Notes under the pieces: generated by a model
The model's database searches: none
What the model was told of the DNA's origin: nothing
The model's input: the letters and a program-made list of their open reading frames with translations, nothing else
Program-made: the position numbers and the translations under genes
Shown here: positions 20,373 through 25,440 of the stretch, piece after piece
How the letters are laid out: every line of letters begins with the position of its first letter
How positions within the stretch are numbered: the first letter of the stretch is position 1
NCBI GenBank assembly: GCA_002155895.1
Contig: MUMD01000207.1
Coordinates: forward strand, 1-51,676
Length of the DNA stretch: 51,676 nt
Direction: 5' to 3'
From: Streptomyces rochei
GTDB lineage: Bacteria; Actinomycetota; Actinomycetes; Streptomycetales; Streptomycetaceae

Positions 20373-20449
20373 GCCGCCTTAGCTCAGATGGCCAGAGCAA
20401 CGCACTCGTAATGCGTAGGTCTCGGGTTCGAATCCCGAAGGCGGCTCCA
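20373..20449 (+). tRNA. tRNA-Thr (anticodon CGU)
   Basis: A full cloverleaf can be drawn. Acceptor GCCGCCT (20373-20379) pairs with AGGCGGC (20439-20445). The anticodon stem ACGCA/TGCGT closes the loop CTCGTAA with anticodon CGT at 20407-20409, reading ACG. The T-arm contains GGTTCGAATCC. The CCA end is encoded (20447-20449). The 3' half serves as integration site for the element that follows. Confidence 0.96.
20404..20447 (+). repeat. attL, 44-bp core in tRNA-Thr
   Basis: This 44-bp segment, from the anticodon stem to the first C of CCA, is repeated exactly at 25257-25300. tRNA 3' halves are typical attachment sites for tyrosine integrases. Here the gene stays intact because the left copy keeps its native 5' half. 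Confidence 0.93.
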
Positions 20450-20492: not shown

Positions 20493-21238
20493 TCAGGCGT
20501 GCGGGTCGGCGCAGCCGTGCCGCCACGTGAGCCGCTGAAGCTGCCACTCCGGGCGGAACAGCTCCGCTTCCAGGTCGACGTACGACCAGCGCAGCCCGAG
20601 CGTCTCGCCCTGTCGGAACCCCATGCCGACACCGACGATCCACCGCATGAACGTAGGACGCTTCGCTGCGGCTTCGAGGAAAGCCTTCGCCTCCTCCTTG
20701 GTGAACGGGTTGGCCTCGGTCTCGTCAATGCTCGGCGGGTCCACGAGCGTGGCGACGTTCTCGCCGACGACGCGCCGGCGGTGGGCGATCTTCAAGGCGC
20801 GGGACAGGATGCGGTGCACCTTCACGACGTGGGAAGGAGCGTGACCGGCGTCGAGCATGGCCCGGTACATCCGCTCCAGGTGCTCAGGCTGCAACTTGTC
20901 GATGCGGTGCTTGCCGACGCCGGGGATGATGTCATTCCGGGTCTTCGACCAGTAGTCATCGAGCGAGCGCGGCTTGAGCTTCAGGCTCGCGATGTCGGTC
21001 AGGTAGGTCTCCATCCACACCGCGACCGTCGGCTTACGGCCTGCGGCGGGCGCGCGTCCCTGGTCCCGCTGGCGCTCCAGCTCCTTCACTTTGCGCTTGA
21101 TCTCGGCTTCCGTCCGGGCCCGGCGGTGGCGTCGGTCGGGCCCGCCGTCGCTCTTTACACCCATCGTCACGCGGGCGTGCCACCAGCCGCGGCACCGAAG
21201 TAGATGGATGACTCCAAGTTGGGCTTGCGGGGGCTCAT
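20493..21238 (-). pseudogene. int: tyrosine recombinase/integrase, frameshifted and C-terminally truncated
   Basis: ATG 21238 follows GGAGGAGC and starts MSPRKPNLESSIYFGA, an N-terminus usual for Streptomyces site-specific integrases. That frame stops at 21167. The homologous reading resumes one frame away with GWWHARVTMGVK, so one base was probably lost near 21183-21193. The SAM-like core-binding domain follows (YLTDIASLKLKPRSLDDYW onward). The catalytic domain begins with GMGFRQGE, containing the first active-site Arg, and then ends at a stop after TWRHGCADPHA. The HxxR and Tyr boxes are missing. About 248 codons remain of an enzyme normally near 380-460. It is almost certainly inactive. 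Confidence 0.88.
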
Positions 21239-21304: not shown

Positions 21305-21535
21305 TCAGTTGGGCAGCGGGGCGAGGTTGGCCACGTAGGCTTCGAGGTCGGTACGCCGGATGCGGTGCGTACGACCCAACTTGATGTACTTCAGTGCACC
21401 TTCGGCCATCAGCTCGTAGACCGTGGAACGGCCGATGGCGAGTGCTTCGGCGGCTTCTTCGGGCTTGTACAGGAGCCGGTCGACGGGAGCGGTGATCGCT
21501 GTACTTATCCAGGCGTCTCCTAAAGGCTTGGGCAC
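21305..21535 (-). CDS. xis: excisionase-like helix-turn-helix protein
   Basis: A 76-residue protein. LLYKPEEAAEALAIGRSTVYELM is the winged HTH of the HTH_17/excise family, followed by the wing LGRTHRIRRTDLEAYV. Such proteins bind att arms and direct the integrase toward excision. It lies directly upstream of int on the same strand, the standard order in actinobacterial elements. The start is GTG 21535; an internal start nearer the domain is possible. The protein looks intact although its integrase is broken. Confidence 0.88.
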   Translation of the reverse strand: MPKPLGDAWISTAITAPVDRLLYKPEEAAEALAIGRSTVYELMAEGALKYIKLGRTHRIRRTDLEAYVANLAPLPN

Positions 21536-21634: not shown

Positions 21635-22309
21635 GTGAAGGCCCTGCGAAGTATCGACTCGACGCTTCCGCGGAACCAGCGCCCGACCAGGGTCTGGTAC
21701 ACGTCCTACGGGTCCAACATGCATTTGGACCGGTTGGCCGCCTATATCAAGGGCGGCCAGCCGCCAGGGGCAGCAAGGGAGTATCCAGGTTGCCACGACC
21801 GGGCTATTCCTACTCGGTCCATTCCCGTGGAACTCAACGGCGCGATGTACTTCGCAACCGAGTCACCGGTCTGGGGAGGCGGCCGTGCCTTCTATGATCC
21901 ACACGCGATCGGGCGTGTCCTCGCTAGGGCGCACCTGGTGACTGCGCAGCAATTTGCCGACATCGCGGCTCAAGAGATGTATCGCGAACCAGGTACGGAT
22001 CTCGACTTGGTCGACGCCTTGGCCCGGGGGCGCGCTGTGCTGGGAGAAGGCCGCTACGAAACGCTCGTATGCGCGGGTCAGATCGACGGCTTGCCCGTTC
22101 TGACCTTCACCGCTCCCTGGGGCATGGATGATGTTCCGTGGGTTAGCCCTTCCGCCGCCTACGTGCGCTTTCTGGCCTCTGGCCTACTGTCTGCCAGCGC
22201 TTGGGACGTGGAAGCCGTCGCCTCGTATGTCGCGGCGTGTCCTGGGGCGGCAGGCCACTGGTCGACTGAAACCATCACTGATCTTTTGCTTGACGGAACG
22301 CCGACGTAA
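21635..22309 (+). CDS. gamma-glutamylcyclotransferase-fold protein (cargo gene)
   Basis: A 224-residue protein. WYTSYGSNM at about residues 21-29 is the substrate-loop signature of the GGCT/AIG2 fold. The body (AMYFATESPVWGGGRAFYDP, AHLVTAQQFADIAAQEM, LVCAGQIDGLPVLTFT) matches a Streptomyces family often auto-annotated as histone deacetylase, a label I do not support from sequence. Substrate unknown. GTG 21635 with AGGAG at 21621-21625 is preferred; a reading frame open from 21545 has no ribosome binding site. It is divergent from xis and carries acquired-looking codon use. Confidence 0.75.
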   Translation: MKALRSIDSTLPRNQRPTRVWYTSYGSNMHLDRLAAYIKGGQPPGAAREYPGCHDRAIPTRSIPVELNGAMYFATESPVWGGGRAFYDPHAIGRVLARAHLVTAQQFADIAAQEMYREPGTDLDLVDALARGRAVLGEGRYETLVCAGQIDGLPVLTFTAPWGMDDVPWVSPSAAYVRFLASGLLSASAWDVEAVASYVAACPGAAGHWSTETITDLLLDGTPT

Positions 22310-22332: not shown

Positions 22333-23811
22333 TTACTTAGCCTTTCCCGTACCATCTAGTTGTTGTGCAAGCGCACTAATCTGAGCCTCAAGGCTGTTCA
22401 CTTCGTTCATCGCTGAGTGGAGATGGTTTCGTCTCGCCTCGGCTTCTCTGGCCAACCTATCCCGAACGTCCGCCGGCGCGTCTGAGTCTACTTCGCGCGC
22501 CGCTGCCTCGCTTTCCATGGCCCTGCGATGCGCTATCTCCCGTTCCATCCTTGCCATCTCTAGCAATTCCCTCAAGTCGGTCAGTTCCTTCATCAGGAGG
22601 CGGTATTCATTGCGCGCATTCTCCTGCTCGGTTGAACCGCTGTCACCGCTTGTTTCACTTTGAATGGCGAGCACGAATTCATTGAAGGGTGGCAGGTGGT
22701 CAGCCGGGAGCGTAAAAGTAACGTCGTCCCCCGAACCCCTCTTGCGGCCCTTCGTCATTGCGCGAAGAATCCGGTCATTCACCGCAAGTGCGGCTCGATC
22801 AGAGTCGGTCTTCATCCTGTCCGGCAGGCTCAAGATGTCTTCGGTATTGCTTGAAACCTTGTTGAGGATGTCCGTGAACATGCGCCTAGGTAGTGTGACG
22901 AGCATGGTTTCACTAGTGCTCACGTCCCGGATGTTCCTTGCTTGCTGCATAGTTGACTGACTCACCGATGCTCCCAGTACTTCCTTCGCCATGCCAAGGA
23001 AAAGCGGAAGCTGAGTCATCAGGAAATCACGGTTACATCGTTCTCCGAATTCCCGCATGAGCTCGGGTCGAGCCCCTACGACGTAACCGGCTTCTTTTTG
23101 AACCCAGTCCGGCTTGACGTCATTCGTCACCAGAAGGACAGGCGTTTCGCGACCCGCCGCCTCTCTCAGTAGCTGTTCCCATACAAAGAAGTCACCATGT
23201 GCATTCTCCGGCTTCCCTGCATCTCTGTAACCCGGCGGTATTTGTTCAGCGGCACGCTCCTGGAAGGCCGTAACAAGCGTGTCTGACTCCTCTTCTGAAA
23301 AAGGGTCACCTGTCTTGCCGTCTAAGACTTGGGCGAGGGTGGAAAGGATCGGATCATTACGGACAACCTTCGCTAGCGATAGATCGAAAGCGTCCGAATG
23401 GCGCTGAATCTCAGTAGAGACCTTCTCGAAGGCGTCATTGATAGGTGCCGTGAGAAGCTGCTTATCGGCGTCGCTCATTGAGCAGCGTTTAGCTAGTGTC
23501 TGAACCTCCTGCAGTGCCTTATTGCGGATACTTTTAAGGTTCTCTGGCACGGAAGTGTAGAGATCCAAATGTTCGCGTACAGCGTCGAAACGACGCTTGT
23601 GATATTCCTTTACTACCTGATGGGGAACCCACAAGCGTTTACCCAGCTGTGCCAAAATGTCGAGCAACTCTTGACGCGCCTGTGGCGTAAATCTATAGAG
23701 CTCCAGCAGGACATTAGTGTCCACGACGATTAGATAGCTTTTGACGGCTTCCCTGTAATCCTCGACGGGGCGCGCCCACAACCCGTCGAAGCCTCTAAGG
23801 AACGTTGACAT
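22333..23811 (-). CDS. PIN-like domain nuclease with C-terminal coiled coil
   Basis: A 492-residue protein. Residues about 25-260 form a PIN-like domain of the PIN_8 type: Asp31 in YLIVVDTNVLLELY, an Asp in GDFFVWEQLL (about 207), and Asp231 in VLLVTNDVK. These are the acidic positions that bind metal in PIN ribonucleases. Residues about 400-485 are a Glu/Arg/Ala-rich coiled coil (RLLMKELTDLRELLEMARME onward). ATG 23811 has AGGGGG upstream. Codon use is visibly AT-richer than the chromosome. No antitoxin gene is adjacent. It faces the EVE-DUF3883 gene across 261 bp. RNA cleavage in phage defence is inference. Confidence 0.82.
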   Translation of the reverse strand: MSTFLRGFDGLWARPVEDYREAVKSYLIVVDTNVLLELYRFTPQARQELLDILAQLGKRLWVPHQVVKEYHKRRFDAVREHLDLYTSVPENLKSIRNKALQEVQTLAKRCSMSDADKQLLTAPINDAFEKVSTEIQRHSDAFDLSLAKVVRNDPILSTLAQVLDGKTGDPFSEEESDTLVTAFQERAAEQIPPGYRDAGKPENAHGDFFVWEQLLREAAGRETPVLLVTNDVKPDWVQKEAGYVVGARPELMREFGERCNRDFLMTQLPLFLGMAKEVLGASVSQSTMQQARNIRDVSTSETMLVTLPRRMFTDILNKVSSNTEDILSLPDRMKTDSDRAALAVNDRILRAMTKGRKRGSGDDVTFTLPADHLPPFNEFVLAIQSETSGDSGSTEQENARNEYRLLMKELTDLRELLEMARMEREIAHRRAMESEAAAREVDSDAPADVRDRLAREAEARRNHLHSAMNEVNSLEAQISALAQQLDGTGKAK

Positions 23812-24072
23812 GTGATACCCCCTATCCCCTTGGGCAGGATATATGACCAACATCAGGTCGCGGTGTCGGTTCTAGGCATCTGTTAAGGAGAGCGAGTCTC
23901 GCCTGCGTGGGGTGAGCCCTGGGGGACGCAGCTGCAACAGTGCCCTTGTGCGGCTTTCGGGGCGAAAAGGTCGCTTTGTCGGTCGCTGTGAGAGAGGCGA
24001 ACGTCCGAGCCGCGGGAGTCGCTAGACCTGGCAGGATCACCCGTAGCCCGATGCTGAGAGTTAGGGGGGATC
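23812..24072. promoter_or_regulatory. divergent promoter region of PIN and EVE-DUF3883 genes
   Basis: A 261-bp noncoding gap separates the two divergent genes. Both have strong G-rich ribosome binding sites next to the start codons (PIN: AGGGGG; EVE gene: AGGGGGGA at 24063-24070). I see no convincing paired -35/-10 or operator. The shared region would allow coordinated expression. Confidence 0.4.
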
Positions 24073-25107
24073 ATGGCCATAAACAGGTGGTGGAGACACG
24101 ATCCAAACGAGCGTTACTGGCTGGAGATCACAAACCGCGAGGACATCGGTACCAACCTGCTGGCGCCCCAAGCCAACGATCGGGGCGAGGAGTATTGGTC
24201 CTACGCGCTCGTACGTGAGGTACGGCCCGGCGACCTCGTGCTGCACTGGGACAAGAACCACGGGCCTGGTGTGGTGGGGTACTCCCACGCTCGGGGGGAG
24301 GCCTTCGCCTCCACGATCATCTGGCAGAGCCGGGGGACCTACGGTCGGCAGCGGGGTGCGTCTGGTCCAGAACCCGCCTGGGAAGCGCCCTTGAGCGGCT
24401 ACCGGAAGTTGAAACGCCCGGTGACTCAGGCTCGCCTCAGGGAGATCGAAGCCACGATTCGGGGCCTGCGGGACCAGCTGGCGGAGGTAGTTGCGGGGCC
24501 GCTCTACTTCCCCTTTGCGTTGTCAGATACCCGGACGCTCCGTGCTGCGCAGGGCTACCTGACCAAGCTTCCGCGAGCACTGGTCGAAGCACTCCCTGAG
24601 CTACGGGAGTTGCGCCAGACGGCCGTCTCTGAGCCCCATGAGCCGGAAGCCGTCGACCTGTCGCCCGCTTCGCTGCTTAAGCCGCGCAGGGTCACCGGTT
24701 ACGGCCGTCAGCGAGACGTACGGCGACGTCAGGCCGTGGAGCGGTACGCGATGGAGCTCGTCCTCAGCCACTACCGCTCAAACGGCTATGAGGTTGAGGA
24801 CGTAGGTGCTCATTCGCCCTGGGACATCACCGCGCGCAAGAAGGGCGCTGAGGTTCACATAGAGGTGAAGGGCAGCACCACCACCCGCGAGGTAATCGAC
24901 CTAACTGAGGGGGAGGTCCGCCATGCGGAGGGCGTCGCCACCTGCCTGGTGGTGATAGATCAAATCGAACTGGGTGACGACCTCCGCTGTCAGGGGGGCC
25001 GGTGGCGCTCATGGAGCGAGTGGTCACCAGCGCGAGGCGATCTTGTTGCCACTGCTTACCGTTATCCGCTACCAGAGGGAGGCCGCGAGGGTCGACCATC
25101 TGTGTAG
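24073..25107 (+). CDS. EVE-like reader fused to DUF3883 PD-(D/E)XK nuclease
   Basis: A 344-residue protein. Residues about 5-110 (RYWLEITNREDIGTNLLAP, VREVRPGDLVLHWD, GVVGYSHARGE) look like an EVE/PUA-like domain, which reads modified bases in type IV restriction enzymes. Residues about 225-320 are a DUF3883 nuclease with a PD-(D/E)XK core: YEVEDVGAHSPWDITAR supplies Asp251, and HIEVKG supplies Glu264 and Lys266. The design fits a modification-dependent restriction endonuclease acting on invading DNA; this is inference from domains. ATG 24073 has a strong SD. It lies in an integrated element, opposite a PIN nuclease. Confidence 0.82.
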   Translation: MAINRWWRHDPNERYWLEITNREDIGTNLLAPQANDRGEEYWSYALVREVRPGDLVLHWDKNHGPGVVGYSHARGEAFASTIIWQSRGTYGRQRGASGPEPAWEAPLSGYRKLKRPVTQARLREIEATIRGLRDQLAEVVAGPLYFPFALSDTRTLRAAQGYLTKLPRALVEALPELRELRQTAVSEPHEPEAVDLSPASLLKPRRVTGYGRQRDVRRRQAVERYAMELVLSHYRSNGYEVEDVGAHSPWDITARKKGAEVHIEVKGSTTTREVIDLTEGEVRHAEGVATCLVVIDQIELGDDLRCQGGRWRSWSEWSPARGDLVATAYRYPLPEGGREGRPSV

Positions 25108-25256: not shown

Positions 25257-25300
25257 ACTCGTAATGCGTAGGTCTCGGGTTCGAATCCCGAAGGCGGCTC
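25257..25300 (+). repeat. attR, 44-bp duplicate of tRNA-Thr 3' half
   Basis: An exact copy of 20404-20447. The 5' half of the tRNA is not present here, so this is not a functional tRNA. Identity stops at 25301 (T instead of C). Confidence 0.93.
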
Positions 25301-25440
25301 TGAAAAAGCCCAGGTCACATAGCCCGTGACCTGGGCTTTGTGCTGCTCGGGCATGGCGCGGCGCTCCCGCGTGATGCGGGTGTCGCTGTGTCCGAGGGTG
25401 TCTGACACGATCATGATGTCGATGCCGAGAGGTCGATCGC
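25301..25440 (-). pseudogene. C-terminal remnant of a second tyrosine integrase
   Basis: The minus strand encodes GIDIMIVSDTLGHSDTRITRE, the box preceding the catalytic Tyr in tyrosine recombinases, then PEQHKAQVTGYVTWAF before reading into attR. The expected Tyr (usually in RDxY) is replaced by RRAM, and the N-terminal and central domains are absent. This is a scar of another element at the same tRNA site, not the missing end of the left integrase in any simple arrangement. Confidence 0.72.
25305..25339. terminator. 14-bp hairpin beside attR
   Basis: AAAGCCCAGGTCAC (25305-25318) pairs perfectly with GTGACCTGGGCTTT (25326-25339). It mirrors the AAGCCCAGC hairpin next to attL and probably is the tRNA/integrase terminator of the older integration. 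Confidence 0.85.

Follow-up and report, generated by a model that had tools for sequence, protein, structure and literature searches.

The window analysed here, a stretch of 51,676 nucleotides from Streptomyces rochei (contig MUMD01000207.1), carries two divergent genes that were originally predicted to form one defence module, in which an EVE-like domain joined to a DUF3883 nuclease would restrict modified DNA and a PIN-like ribonuclease could add an abortive arm. The locus therefore raises two questions, namely what the nuclease gene encodes and whether its neighbour is a partner or a separate passenger. We consider it likely that the ORF at 24073–25107 encodes a type IV-like restriction nuclease that is modification-dependent, works alone and requires no NTP, and that it lies beside a separately acquired PIN_8 gene.

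The EVE-NOV_C gene and its nuclease domain

The nuclease gene had been drawn from position 23812, a start that must be given up because three in-frame stop codons lie upstream of 24073. The ORF begins at the ATG at 24073, just upstream of which there is a G-rich, ribosome-binding-like stretch, and runs on the forward strand to 25107; its 344 aa product, EVE-NOV_C, is a predicted modification-dependent nuclease on the basis of Pfam, alignment, a fold model and hhalign. The nuclease region occupies residues 216–335 (24718–25077, forward strand) and matches the Pfam family NOV_C (PF13020, or DUF3883) at residues 222–286 with an E-value of 7.7e-11 (42.4 bits against a curated cut-off of 22.1). For this half of the protein, a Foldseek search found archaeal Hjc Holliday-junction resolvases (best E-value 0.0017). 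The three residues originally proposed as a PD-(D/E)XK core, D251, E264 and K266 (codons at 24823–24825, 24862–24864 and 24868–24870 respectively), are invariant in an alignment of 13 proteins, comprising the window protein and 12 homologues that are 34–83 % identical to it, so that this claim can be retained; a distant homologue from Nonomuraea (L002) is not among these 13. When the full 344 aa profile was compared with the PDB the matches were at chance level only, and a search of 50,697 phage records gave no match to either the EVE-NOV_C or the PIN_8 protein.

DUF3883 is termed a novel restriction endonuclease domain in a passage of PMC3710099. A survey (PMC10609329) lists it, in one passage, as a group of presumed Type II, not Type IV, enzymes, which speaks against the type IV-like reading. 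The PADLOC HmaA profile matches EVE-NOV_C at residues 170–285, and DUF3883 is common to the window protein and the SNF2 helicase–DUF3883 proteins (HmaA in PADLOC; treated in part of PMC3710099), although the window protein has no helicase.

An EVE-like reader and its candidate pocket

The reader region comprises residues 1–180 (24073–24612, forward strand), and the claim of an EVE/PUA-like N-terminus fares differently according to the method used. It falls short in Pfam, where the EVE family matches the window protein with an E-value of 0.0015 and a score of 19 bits, below the cut-off of 23 bits, and where none of seven other EVE-NOV_C proteins scanned has an EVE match above the cut-off, each being either below it or unmatched; a Pfam scan alone would thus leave the identity of the reader unsettled. 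It stands in the fold and profile–profile comparisons. An AlphaFold2 model of EVE-NOV_C of modest quality (mean pLDDT 76.5, pTM 0.55, with low confidence at residues 87–94, 183–212 and 325–328) has the modification-dependent EVE-HNH enzyme VcaM4I (6yex) as its first-ranked Foldseek match (E-value 1.5e-8), followed by EVE, PUA, ASCH and McrB-N structures, and a pairwise hhalign comparison of 12 reader domains with the reader domains of five EVE-HNH proteins, taken from plasmid records, gave a probability of 96.2 and an E-value of 2e-9. One of these five proteins (L089) can be aligned with VcaM4I along almost its entire length (E-value 1.8e-93), and this ties the residue numbering of VcaM4I to the EVE-HNH profile. 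VcaM4I is also the best match of a reader-only profile in the PDB, with a whole-sequence E-value of 0.01 and just 0.46 for the best single stretch.

According to passages of PMC7897488, VcaM4I flips 5mC or 5hmC into a pocket formed by P24, W82 and Y130 while Q128 fills the gap as a wedge, and T11 and E15 are among the residues that hold the edge of the base. Profile comparison and the PDB search map P24, W82, Y130 and Q128 to P32, W84, Y162 and Q160 of the window protein, and MAFFT alone maps T11 and E15 to R14 and E18. W84 is the least certain of the first four, since it is assigned from hhalign and the VcaM4I W82 column misses it in the MAFFT alignment. Y145 was tried as the pocket tyrosine and rejected, the alignments placing Y162 there. 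P32, W84, Y162, Q160, R14 and E18 are all invariant in the 13 aligned proteins, and the Nonomuraea homologue keeps the equivalents of P32, W84, Y162, Q160 and E18 and has an asparagine at the position of R14. The candidate pocket (E18, P32, W84, Q160 and Y162) appears from these alignments to match the VcaM4I set except at T11, and the arginine in its place is the main difference; because of this replacement the base that is read might differ from that of VcaM4I.

The likeness to VcaM4I, as described in part in PMC7897488, extends to a similar two-domain layout: an EVE reader at the N-terminus, which has the P24/W82/Q128/Y130 set as well as an acid at the E15 position (E18 in the window protein), and a nuclease at the C-terminus. 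The two proteins differ in that the window nuclease is a NOV_C PD-(D/E)XK domain and not HNH, in R14 for T11, and in the longer loops of the window reader. The same core architecture is found in the EVE-PD(D/E)XK fusions, which sections of Bell et al. 2020 (PMC7641849) present as predicted type IV enzymes, a prediction that recurs in a passage of a later paper (PMC8281217); neither NOV_C nor DUF3883 is named in the main text of Bell et al. 2020, and the terms 'EVE domain' and 'DUF3883' were not found together in any of the open-access papers searched. The fusions are therefore already published as a class, and the window protein would be a further member, in which the defining property, cleavage of modified DNA only, is predicted. 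To judge from sequence and model, the features of an EVE-type restriction endonuclease are present, these being a reader of EVE/PUA fold, a base-flipping pocket set and a nuclease with intact catalytic residues.

In the mechanism that we propose, a modified base of the incoming DNA, probably derived from cytosine, would be flipped out by the EVE domain and enter the pocket of P32, W84 and Y162, with Q160 serving as the wedge; the NOV_C domain, through D251, E264 and K266, would then cut the DNA nearby. The presumed outcome would be defence against phages.

A decayed integrative element at a tRNA-Thr gene

Both genes lie within a 4.85 kb element that is flanked by a perfect 44 bp direct repeat. 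The left copy (20404–20447, forward strand) is the 3′ part of an intact tRNA-Thr(CGT) gene (20373–20449) that was called by both ARAGORN and Rfam, and the right copy (25257–25300, forward strand) matches it exactly. Genes in this and the other loci were called with a simple in-house script and not with an established gene finder; the series between the repeats opens with an integrase remnant, continues with an excisionase-like HTH gene and an ORF that Pfam does not match, and closes with the PIN_8 gene and then the EVE-NOV_C gene. The integrase remnant (20496–21188, reverse strand) is 86 % identical to residues 18–248 (231 residues) of the 465 aa integrase of a related element (L083); its C-terminal catalytic domain is absent, and the match to residues 1–14 of the relative is a separate piece. 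The 76 aa excisionase-like protein (21305–21535, reverse strand) belongs to HTH_17 (Pfam, E-value 4.4e-14; NCBIfam excise, 4.2e-14) and is 85 % identical over 67 residues to an L083 gene product. The ORF without a Pfam match (21635–22309, forward strand) encodes 224 aa and contains a YTSYGSNM motif, which we take to be reminiscent of gamma-glutamylcyclotransferase-like proteins. The mol% G+C is 54.2 in the PIN_8 gene and 64.6 in the EVE-NOV_C gene, against about 73 in the flanks. The element is called from the repeat, the int and xis genes and the base composition together, and the original description of a tRNA-borne element of foreign base composition is borne out.

The element is decayed, with a truncated integrase. 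It resembles the actinomycete integrative and conjugative elements in its tRNA site and in having int and xis genes related to those of the 16.9 kb L083 element, and differs from them in being just 4.85 kb long, in its truncated integrase and in having no FtsK-like gene. Of the features of an autonomous integrative conjugative element, attachment repeats at a tRNA gene are present, whereas a complete integrase and an FtsK-like gene were not found among the five called genes, none of which matches a transfer or replication family in Pfam.

Relatives were found that have the upstream flank together with this tRNA-Thr gene. For nine of them a downstream stretch was fetched, and in four (L081–L084) the repeat occurs again at a distance of 3.1 to 19.8 kb; three of these four stretches had been cut so as to take in copies already known, and the five without a copy were read for about 8–10 kb only. 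This tRNA-Thr gene looks like a common insertion site, or hotspot, with varied cargo. At the same tRNA-Thr, the 16.9 kb element of L083 (1804–18767) contains the related integrase and excisionase genes, an FtsK-like gene and a gene for a 558 aa HNH-domain protein, and we note by eye that an N-terminal YDSKAIAGVAH stretch of the latter is also found in two NOV_C relatives (L064 and L065). Beyond the right repeat, and outside the element, a 21-residue integrase-like piece (25364–25426, reverse strand; 86 % identity to an L084-type integrase, E-value 1e-7) is perhaps the trace of an older neighbouring (tandem) element. The right flank of the window was not found after the tRNA gene in the loci of seven relatives, so that no empty site is demonstrated.

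The PIN_8 gene

The gene divergent from EVE-NOV_C (22333–23811, reverse strand) encodes a 492 aa protein. A G-rich, ribosome-binding-like stretch precedes the start at 23811, which was preferred to an alternative at 23853. Residues 27–251 (23059–23733) match Pfam PIN_8 (PF18476) with an E-value of 5.5e-59 (200.3 bits against a cut-off of 26.1), making the protein a clear member of this family, and D31, E69, D207, D231 and D235 do not vary across 14 aligned proteins, namely that of the window and 13 relatives; the PIN-like assignment and the three acidic residues first named for it (D31, D207 and D231) are thus upheld. The helical tail (residues approximately 394–487, 22351–22632) aligns poorly with relatives, and helices are predicted in the model at residues 394–440 and 447–487, so that it is probably a coiled coil, as had been suggested. 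A Foldseek search with the PIN_8 model gave nothing at E-values up to 0.001, the top matches looking like chance matches to helical proteins, and phmmer found nothing in the PDB at E-values up to 1; the PIN fold therefore rests on the Pfam profile and the conserved residues. PADLOC gave weak matches only (best 0.012).

A relative of the PIN_8 protein (E-value up to 1e-20) is present in 34 of 392 genomes of the genus, this genome included. No partner gene is common to all 13 PIN_8 loci that were examined (L003 and L037–L048). We note that three of the 13 (L038, 8944–10177; L040, 5143–6362; L042, 10826–12058) have two related genes in common near PIN_8, whose products are about 156 and 245 aa long. 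Among eight chosen neighbours of PIN_8 genes, PADLOC matched two as parts of type III restriction systems (L046), one as a type IIG enzyme (L047) and one as a type IV enzyme (L003); another (L048) has weaker matches only, and those in L040, L042 and L045 have none. In L003 (5956–9743) the type IV (mREase_IV) gene and the PIN_8 gene are arranged tail to tail on a Streptomyces plasmid. The most likely role of the window protein is an inferred one, that of a lone defence-associated RNase.

Relatives and neighbourhoods of EVE-NOV_C

EVE-NOV_C proteins are rarer, being found at E-values up to 1e-20 in five of the 392 genomes of the genus, again counting this one; a scan of genome contigs that is sensitive to close relatives only gave six loci, including one in Arthrobacter citreus. 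Across the class, 19 of 394 genomes matched at E-values up to 1e-15, five of them (this genome among them) nearly over the full length and 14 in the nuclease half only. Six of the NOV_C relatives with the nuclease half were scanned with Pfam, and in four (L054, L057, L062 and L063) MrcB_N takes the place of EVE; these share the C-terminal nuclease type of the window protein and have an McrB-type reader where it has EVE. The other two (L064 and L065) have no Pfam match there; they and a further NOV_C protein (L066) carry a different N-terminus. A protein encoded by a Lactiplantibacillus plasmid (L094, 5938–6903) and annotated as DUF3883 matches NOV_C with an E-value of 5.2e-10 and, weakly (E-value 0.7), the reader stretch of VcaM4I; this possible EVE-like N-terminus is a hint that fusions of the EVE-NOV_C type may reach the Bacillota.

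Beyond the EVE-NOV_C gene itself, nothing in common with the window was found at nine other loci of this gene (blastp E-value up to 1e-8, with one side only available for L007). Among themselves, L008 and L009 have in common a 60 aa ORF beside the EVE-NOV_C gene, and L008 and L036 several more distant genes. The neighbours include GmrSD_N and RelA_SpoT proteins (L006), AIPR (L009), an nSTAND1-WD40 protein (L007), an integrase (L008) and a protein with a weak, below-cut-off SIR2-like match (L010), which suggest defence or mobile settings; others are not of this kind, since L005 has an Aldedh protein and a glycosyltransferase and L035 has an HTH protein of ArsR type, and the neighbour in L036 has no match. 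The neighbours of EVE-NOV_C homologues (10 proteins), like those of the PIN_8 set (10 proteins), were picked by hand and without a control, and we claim no enrichment. A tRNA-Pro gene lies about 350 bp upstream in L035, and in L005 there is a dip in G+C of about the size of the EVE-NOV_C gene; with the unshared neighbourhoods, these observations make it seem that EVE-NOV_C travels as a single gene.

Partners or independent cargo, and alternative functions

If the two genes were one module, with DNA restriction and an abortive RNase arm expressed divergently from the 261 bp spacer, they should recur together or share a neighbourhood. They are adjacent and divergent within one element, and PIN endoRNases are described in part of PMC12839542 as backup effectors beside BREX systems. 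Against this, PF18476 (E-value up to 1e-5) was found in none of the 12 other EVE-NOV_C genomes searched, eight with a closer relative of the gene and four with a distant full-length one (the fifth such genome, that of L002, being left out). In the search of closer relatives this genome itself was matched, which shows that the search works, and in both searches 14 control genomes were unmatched; the distant search matched no genome at all and alone would not prove absence. The lists of EVE-NOV_C genomes (five) and PIN_8 genomes (34) overlap, among the 392, in this genome only. Since PIN_8 is present in about 9 % of genomes, its absence from 12 is unremarkable if the genes are unlinked and unexpected for a module. 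The base composition of the two genes differs, as given above, and a sigma-70 scan of the spacer found no promoter-like site, which is weak evidence. A conserved module of these two genes was accordingly rejected on whole-genome co-occurrence and neighbourhood comparison, and the joint system of the original prediction, of which the fusion of modification-dependent restriction kind and its status as element cargo are supported, is highly improbable. Given the lack of co-occurrence, the unshared neighbourhoods and the different G+C, we prefer to regard EVE-NOV_C and PIN_8 as cargo genes that are independent of each other and were probably acquired separately.

A different function for EVE-NOV_C itself is also improbable, namely that EVE recognizes RNA with modifications (in tRNA or mRNA, for instance), that the target of NOV_C is something other than phage DNA, and that the gene has a regulatory role or acts as a stress effector. 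Sections of PMC7641849 predict many EVE domains to bind modified RNA and describe a (PIN)-GNAT-EVE toxin–antitoxin class, yet the best structural and profile match of the reader is to VcaM4I, which depends on DNA modification, the PD-(D/E)XK core has Hjc-like DNA nuclease matches, and NOV_C relatives bear MrcB_N; moreover, the GNAT domain that marks this class has no Pfam match in either protein. The truncated integrase and the lack of transfer or replication families among the five element genes could alternatively mean that the element is a fossil whose decayed or inactive cargo no longer matters, but neither cargo ORF is shortened, and both retain their conserved catalytic and pocket residues and are preceded by ribosome-binding-like stretches; we regard this alternative as unlikely. 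A stand-alone modification-dependent nuclease remains the favoured reading, and a more specific form of it is conceivable, if rather doubtful: EVE-NOV_C could be an uncharacterized modification-dependent restriction class whose Arg-for-T11 pocket reads a modification other than 5mC/5hmC, perhaps from actinomycete phages or competing restriction systems, with NOV_C as a general cutting module that accepts swapped readers, which would include EVE, MrcB_N and one or more further N-termini. The asparagine of L002 at the R14 position lowers the weight of this suggestion.

Implications

The analysis turns a weak profile match into a testable prediction, in which the pocket residues and catalytic residues of an EVE-NOV_C nuclease are named. 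It also does away with a two-gene system that had been proposed and to which relatives give no support. The series EVE-HNH, EVE-NOV_C and MrcB_N-NOV_C, in which reader and nuclease appear to be swapped, offers a way to ask how modification readers and nucleases combine. Enzymes of this kind can hinder the transformation of Streptomyces with methylated DNA, and the predicted nuclease may for that reason be relevant to strain engineering.
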